NCBI GenBank assembly: GCA_004297165.1
Contig: SCUJ01000006.1
Coordinates: 372,001-436,000 of the forward strand
Length of the DNA: 64,000 nucleotides
Origin: Gammaproteobacteria bacterium
GTDB taxonomy: Bacteria; Pseudomonadota; Gammaproteobacteria; Eutrophobiales; Eutrophobiaceae
Direction: 5' to 3'
Shown: positions 30,561-31,743 of the stretch, piece after piece
How the letters are laid out: every line of letters starts with the position of its first letter
Position numbering within the stretch: position 1 is the first letter of the stretch
Program-made: the position numbers and the translations under genes
The notes under the pieces: model-generated
Database searches by the model: none
Told to the model about the DNA's origin: nothing
The model's input: only the letters and a program-made list of their open reading frames with translations

Positions 30561-31136
30561 TCAAGGCAGCTTGAACCCGGTCTGCCGCAGCATGGCGCAC
30601 AGGCGGATGAGGGGCAGGCCGATCAGGGCCGTCGCATCGCCGCCCGTGATGCTCTCAAGCAGGGTGATGCCGTAGCCTTCGGATTTGAAGCTGCCAGCGC
30701 AATCGTATGGCCGTTCCTGCAACAGGTAGCGATCGATTTCCTCGGTTGTGAGAGTGCGAAACTTCACCAGGCATTCCACGCTATCGATCCAGGTTTCGTT
30801 CCTGTCGCTGTCCCAGACGCATAATCCGGTGTGGAAATGCATGATCTTTCCGCTCGCCTCCTGTAATTGAGCCGCGGCGGCGGCGTGATTGCCGGGTTTC
30901 CCGACGATCTTGTCAGCGAGCGTCGCCATTTGGTCAGAACCGATCACAATAGAGCCTGGCGGCAGGGCAGGAATCCCCTTGGCCTTGGCCTCGGCGAGCC
31001 GCTCCACCATCTGGCGGACATTCTCATGCGCCAGCCTGGTTTCCTCGATGGCAGGCGCCATGGATTGAAATGGGATATTTAGCCGCTTGAGCAATGCGGC
31101 CCGATACGGCGAGGTCGATGCGAGGATGATGGGAAT
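30561..31136 (-). CDS. yceF: Maf-family nucleoside triphosphate pyrophosphatase (YceF type), probable ATT start
   Basis: A Maf/YceF protein, which hydrolyses modified nucleotides (m7GTP in E. coli YceF). Motifs are ASTSPYR at the N-terminus, GSDQMA, the KPGNHAAAAAQL segment and CAGSFKSEGYGITLLE. The first ordinary start in frame (TTG 31094) would cut off the essential ASTSPYR. Upstream in the same frame, back to the stop at 31179-31181, there is no ATG, GTG or TTG. ATT at 31136 lies 8 bases after GGAG (31148-31145) and aligns with the first residue of E. coli YceF, giving 191 residues. The ATG at 31143 just after the ribosome site is out of frame. So either ATT initiates or one base is wrong here. 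Confidence 0.82.
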   Translation of the reverse strand: MPIILASTSPYRAALLKRLNIPFQSMAPAIEETRLAHENVRQMVERLAEAKAKGIPALPPGSIVIGSDQMATLADKIVGKPGNHAAAAAQLQEASGKIMHFHTGLCVWDSDRNETWIDSVECLVKFRTLTTEEIDRYLLQERPYDCAGSFKSEGYGITLLESITGGDATALIGLPLIRLCAMLRQTGFKLP

Positions 31137-31218
31137 GACACATTCTCCTTGTCGATAAATTCTATTCGGGTCAAAGGCTTAAAATTATAAGCGTAGATGA
31201 TTCCCTTTGACACCTTGA

Positions 31219-31743
31219 ATGTGGGTGATTAAACTTGCCGGCCTGATGGCGTCCGTCCCTCAGTTCATTGATCTTCCGCTCTTGATTGAACAGCGCGGAG
31301 AGTTATCGGGTGAATTTCCGCTTGTTTCCATGCCCAGATTGCTGGAGTTGGCGACATCGGAAGACGGCTGTGTCAGCTTCGATTTGACGTTCGGCAAGGA
31401 TGCGCAGGGCATAGATTTTATTACCGGACATTACCGCGCCAGCTTGCAGGTGAAATGTCAGCGGTGTCTGACGCCGATCAATCTGAACCTGACGGGGAAG
31501 ATAAATCTGGCGGTTATCGAAAATGAGGCCGCGACAGGGGAGTTGCCCGGCTTTTATGAACCTTTGATTCATGGCAGCGGCCGTCTCTCGTTGCCTGCCC
31601 TGTTGGAAGACGAGATTATTCTGACCTTGCCCATGGCGCCGCTGCACCTGATCGCCGAGTGTCCATCCGGCGATCTGCTGCGAGAGTATGCGACCACGCG
31701 GGAATCGCCGTTCGCGGTGTTGAAAGGAATTAAAAACAAGTAG
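31219..31743 (+). CDS. yceD: YceD/DUF177 protein, 23S rRNA accumulation factor
   Basis: A 174-residue DUF177 protein. The core VKCQRCLTPINLNL holds the paired cysteines, and the C-terminal EDEIILTLPMAPLH and NPFAVL-like SPFAVLKGIKNK end are characteristic. In E. coli YceD is needed for normal 23S rRNA levels; the mechanism is unclear. It sits directly before rpmF, as almost everywhere in bacteria. Two starts are possible, ATG 31219 and ATG 31246, and neither has a strong ribosome-binding site; the shorter one (165 residues) fits the family better. Confidence 0.92.
   Translation: MWVIKLAGLMASVPQFIDLPLLIEQRGELSGEFPLVSMPRLLELATSEDGCVSFDLTFGKDAQGIDFITGHYRASLQVKCQRCLTPINLNLTGKINLAVIENEAATGELPGFYEPLIHGSGRLSLPALLEDEIILTLPMAPLHLIAECPSGDLLREYATTRESPFAVLKGIKNK

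Follow-up and report, generated by a model that had tools for sequence, protein, structure and literature searches.

We analyzed a stretch of gammaproteobacterial DNA of 64,000 nucleotides, referred to here as the window, and examined a maf/yceF gene located on its minus strand next to a divergent yceD gene (31219-31743, plus strand; Pfam YceD). The maf frame is open throughout (31178-30561), between an upstream in-frame stop TAA at 31181-31179 and the stop TGA at 30563-30561. Its translation matched TIGR00172 with 158.1 bits (cut-off 117.15) and Pfam Maf with 169 bits, with profile position 1 falling on residue 16 of the stop-to-stop frame. The Maf signature S-R-E-K-D-K (PMC3899018) was present at all six positions (S9, R12, E32, K51, D68, and K80), and an alignment of 29 sequences showed little or no variation at these residues. 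In place of the Arg, Thr, and Gln of YhdE, the window protein carries the YceF-type aromatic residue, Gln, and Glu (SPYR, GSDQ, and SFKSE), while the other maf of the same genome carries the YhdE-type SPRR. By these sequence features the product is a YceF-type Maf, the subfamily whose E. coli member is described as an m7GTP pyrophosphatase (PMC3899018).

The original prediction stated that no ATG, GTG, or TTG occurs in this frame between the upstream stop and the ASTSPYR motif. We re-read the frame and obtained the same result; the first such codon is a TTG at 31094-31092, downstream of the motif. An ATT is located at 31136-31134, 8 nt after the GGAG at 31148-31145, and the coordinates of the original prediction were confirmed. 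The GGAG belongs to a Shine-Dalgarno (SD) sequence, AAGGAG (31150-31145), with a duplex energy with the anti-SD of -8.5 kcal/mol. Initiation at this ATT, which is indicated by its position, its SD spacing, and its conservation in relatives, would yield a product of 191 amino acids (30561-31136 including the stop codon, minus strand). A second in-frame ATT was found 10 codons upstream of the motif. One alternative is that the gene is dead or that translation begins at TTG 31094, the earliest canonical codon in the frame. A protein started at this TTG would lack the signature Ser and Arg, and all six signature residues are present in a frame that is open over its whole length. We therefore give this alternative almost no credence.

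The ATG at 31143-31141, 1 nt after GGAG and 7 nt from the ATT, does lie in a different frame from maf, as had been noted. It opens a frame of 39 codons (31143-31024, minus strand; read by eye) that overlaps the maf start and might compete for ribosomes in the window genome; this ATG is not kept in a relative from the same genus. Upstream, we found a promoter-like site, GTGTCA-18-TATAAT (31184-31213, minus strand). The region gave three sites in total on both strands compared with a shuffle mean of 0.1, all defined by consensus match only. Transcription from the site at 31184-31213 would begin near 31177, past the upstream stop, which would make the AUU the sole sensible start on the message. 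Folding of the window leader gave no sign of RNA structure at the start, being no better than that of shuffled sequences (z 0.36).

We then compared maf with the other genes of the window. Of 58 candidate frames, 50 were scanned with profiles (10 with NCBIfam and 40 with Pfam) and 45 gave a match, with positions entered by hand. A canonical codon was found at or before the profile start in 44 of the 45 matched frames, and maf alone had a profile starting upstream of the first canonical codon of its frame. Twenty of the other 44 profiles start no more than 20 residues from the first canonical codon and are thus close tests. The first canonical codon of fabH (33050) is a TTG, and for plsX, 24 of 41 loci of the order to which the window genome belongs have TTG or GTG as the closest upstream codon. 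Weak canonical starts thus look common in this fatty-acid cluster.

Start codons of maf in relatives

The absence of a canonical start could also be explained by the gain or loss of a single base, technical or real, which split ATG 31143 from the maf frame; this ATG lies right after the SD and one frame off, in keeping with such an event. We ran the comparison with relatives that bears on this explanation. G001, a genome of the same genus whose protein is 66% identical, has GGAGAATCCGTCATTACC at the place of GGAGAATGTGTCATTCCC in the window; the two are of equal length, the ATT is kept, and the ATG of the window is absent. In the start region (GGAGAATCCGTCATTACCATCATA in G001 and GGAGAATGTGTCATTCCCATCATC in the window), the SD, the spacer, and the ATT are conserved with no base more or fewer. 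The distance from SD to motif is unchanged in G001. The spacing of 1 nt between GGAG and ATG is also too short for a normal start.

We extended the comparison to 53 genomes of the order, representing one family and 18 genera. Of these, 48 contained this maf at an E-value of 1e-30 or better, and all 48 starts were inspected. A start was denoted AUH if an in-frame ATT, ATC, or ATA (AUU, AUC, or AUA in the message) preceded the motif by 1-8 codons and was itself preceded, at a distance of 4-10 nt, by the end of a 4-nt SD core. AUH starts behind an SD were found in 30 of the 48 genes, from 12 of the 18 genera, and comprised ATT (18), ATC (10), and ATA (2). The preference of the original prediction for ATT over an insertion or deletion is thus supported by a same-genus relative free of any such change and by the recurrence of the arrangement across genera. 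We consider a one-base change in the window extremely improbable, and on the evidence of the relatives we rejected a frameshift or assembly error as the origin of the missing start.

In 19 of the 30 AUH genes, the frame was devoid of canonical codons from the upstream stop to the motif. The remaining 11 genomes had a canonical codon somewhere in the maf frame, including G001, whose in-frame ATGs precede the motif by 11 and 7 codons; the closer of the two adjoins the SD and is preceded by a weak AGGG. Some relatives (G011, G050, G018, G052, and G053) had two candidate AUH codons. The 18 genes lacking the AUH arrangement had ATG or GTG in 16 cases and unclear canonical codons in G004 and G066, which indicates that the arrangement is not indispensable.

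These genomes also bear on the possibility that ribosomes start at the out-of-frame ATG 31143 and reach the maf frame by programmed frameshifting. The ATG is near the SD. However, the same-genus relative lacks it, and in 24 of the 30 AUH genomes the stretch from 30 nt before the AUH codon up to the motif is free of ATG in all three frames. We regard frameshifting as highly unlikely.

To place the order in its class, we used a class-wide sample, in which the gene was detected in 145 of 185 genomes at an E-value of 1e-50. Of these, 143 were outside the order, and 116 of the 143 were inspected. None of the 116 had an AUH codon behind an SD, none lacked an in-frame canonical codon, and 101 had an ATG within 14 codons. 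The Fisher value for the order against the outside sample was 3e-12; it ignores kinship and is not used here as a probability. Among 80 named loci, the 78 that lay outside the order and could be judged all had an in-frame canonical codon, which was far from the motif in L045, L091, L097, and L104. The named loci and the class sample probably share some genomes, and their counts were not added. In the maf frames of L091, L223, and L230, the sole canonical codon was a distant TTG, 14-15 codons ahead of the motif, and L091 and L223 also had an out-of-frame ATG close by; L223 and L230 represent one genus outside the order. E. coli YceF belongs to the same subfamily as the window Maf, with the aromatic-Gln-Glu residues, but its gene starts with ATG rather than ATT.

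In a tree of the maf genes, built by a quick method that poorly resolves the deep forks, AUH starts occurred across the order and required at least 4 changes of state. This distribution fits an ancestral AUH start with losses as well as more than one gain, and the tree favors neither. There were at least 6 changes among ATT, ATC, and ATA. That these roughly six changes ran among T, C, and A and never to G is weak evidence against AUG.

Control genes and Shine-Dalgarno strength

The AUH starts could reflect a lineage that reads these codons as ordinary starts, through an altered initiator tRNA or a lax IF3. We found that infC of the order also has an AUH start: AUC (23), AUU (4), or AUA (2) was located at the expected place behind an SD in all 29 genes that could be placed among 30 loci. 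In five of these 29, a canonical codon was also present, 17-24 codons ahead of the RLN/RVN motif. The infC of the window genome lies outside the window (L322, G000:C13:459964-460774) and has an apparent AUA start behind TTGGAGG; an in-frame ATG lies further upstream, before the SD.

Although the AUH starts of both infC and maf would fit such a general reading, the control genes argue against it. The nearest upstream codon of rpmF was ATG in 31 of 31 genes placed among 48 loci, and that of plsX was canonical in 41 of 41 placed among 48; both genes lie on the opposite strand from maf in the loci where they were placed. The second, YhdE-type maf had a canonical codon within 7 codons of the motif in 19 of 19 genomes (18 with an AUH maf, and G004). 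The gene pcnB of E. coli resembles the window maf as an enzyme gene with an AUU start. In the order, however, 18 of the 19 pcnB genes placed among 30 loci had ATG (16) or GTG (2) in the usual position, and pcnB was rejected as a second positive control for AUH starts. The pcnB of G049 (L194) had no ATG, GTG, or TTG from the upstream stop to the conserved part, which may represent a non-canonical start or an error. Together with the canonical codons of 44 of the 45 matched window frames, these results make a lineage-wide reading of AUH codons a very improbable explanation. In this order the AUH start is gene-specific, being found in maf and infC, while the control genes are canonical.

We also analyzed SD strength in relation to the start codon. 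The median duplex energy was -6.65 kcal/mol for the AUH maf starts of the order (n=30) and -0.55 kcal/mol for its other maf starts (n=18), a contrast to which the AUH rule itself contributes, since it requires an SD core. In the class sample, the best canonical maf start within 14 codons had a median of -3.0 kcal/mol (n=113). For other genes of the order, the value was -9.3 kcal/mol for infC (n=27), about -7 for rpmF, and about -3 for plsX and the second maf. None of the 48 maf genes of the order combined a strong SD (-5 kcal/mol or stronger) with a canonical codon within 14 codons. Thus, maf has either a good codon with a weak SD or a poor codon with a strong SD, which suggests that strong translation is selected against. 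Weak SDs are also usual for plsX and the second maf in the order, and so are by themselves no proof of selection for low output.

A possible role of IF3 in keeping the AUU start

We conclude that the AUU start itself (31136-31134) is well supported, and that the AUH start of maf looks like a kept translation brake rather than a sequencing mistake. Taken as a whole, the explanation that we consider probable is that the window maf starts at a genuine and IF3-sensitive AUU. IF3 is described as repressing starts other than ATG, GTG, and TTG (PMC5472188). By analogy with work on E. coli and Streptomyces, IF3 may discriminate against the AUU of maf in the same manner. The strong SD would set fMet-tRNA over the AUU, and IF3 would dissociate the 30S complex there more often than at AUG, as at other non-canonical starts. 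YceF would then be made sparingly, and its output would rise as the ratio of free IF3 to 30S subunits falls. The SD and codon pattern points to possible selection for weak or adjustable YceF translation.

Among the closest known systems are infC and sigR. The infC gene, with an ATT start in E. coli and an ATC start in Streptomyces, is autoregulated through IF3 repression (PMC5472188). It resembles the window maf in having an AUH start behind a strong SD, as does the infC of the order with AUC, AUU, or AUA. However, infC forms an autoregulatory loop, whereas Maf is not a translation factor and has no known feedback on IF3. The sigR gene of Streptomyces has a GTC start repressed by IF3 (PMC5472188). 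It is an example, as maf would be, of a non-canonical start holding down the amount of a protein other than IF3. It differs in that the codon is GTC rather than AUH, in that it encodes a sigma factor rather than a nucleotide-cleaning enzyme, and in that the effect of IF3 is experimental in sigR and inferred for maf. As sigR is under IF3 control like infC, YceF may by analogy be made sparingly and answer to free IF3.

A genuine AUU start could also serve as a fixed throttle only, if excess Maf is harmful and IF3 varies too little to matter. This differs from the IF3-sensitive start in purpose and not in the codon used, and the chances of the two overlap. The relatives with canonical starts have weak SDs (median -0.55 kcal/mol), so that low output is seemingly reached either way. 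In addition, extra copies of a maf of the other, YhdE-type subfamily block septation in B. subtilis (PMC3899018), which provides a motive for keeping YceF low. On the other hand, a weak SD alone would suffice for a throttle, and the pairing of a poor codon with a strong SD is what infC of the order shows. We give the fixed throttle slightly less than an even chance, and whether IF3 control or a plain throttle is the reason for keeping the AUU is about an even bet.

If IF3 does act on both genes, infC and maf could together constitute a small IF3-sensing pair. A drop in free IF3 relative to 30S subunits would raise YceF along with IF3, and YceF would clear modified nucleotides such as m7GTP and perhaps delay division until initiation fidelity recovers. 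We regard this as possible but rather doubtful.

Very few non-canonical start codons have been characterized experimentally, start prediction assumes ATG, GTG, or TTG, and none of the available streptomycete genomes had the start of sigR annotated correctly (PMC5472188). Given this assumption, the window maf would probably be annotated 14 codons short, with part of the active site lost, or missed. Among the matches listed from open-licence PMC papers, none, judged by title, concerned a maf/yceF with a non-canonical start. The maf of this order would be a further conserved gene with an AUH start, encoding a nucleotide-cleaning enzyme, and a new member of a small known class. If IF3 control is true, it would link initiation fidelity to the cleaning of the nucleotide pool, and the order would offer a clean comparative system in which one gene is found with both types of start.
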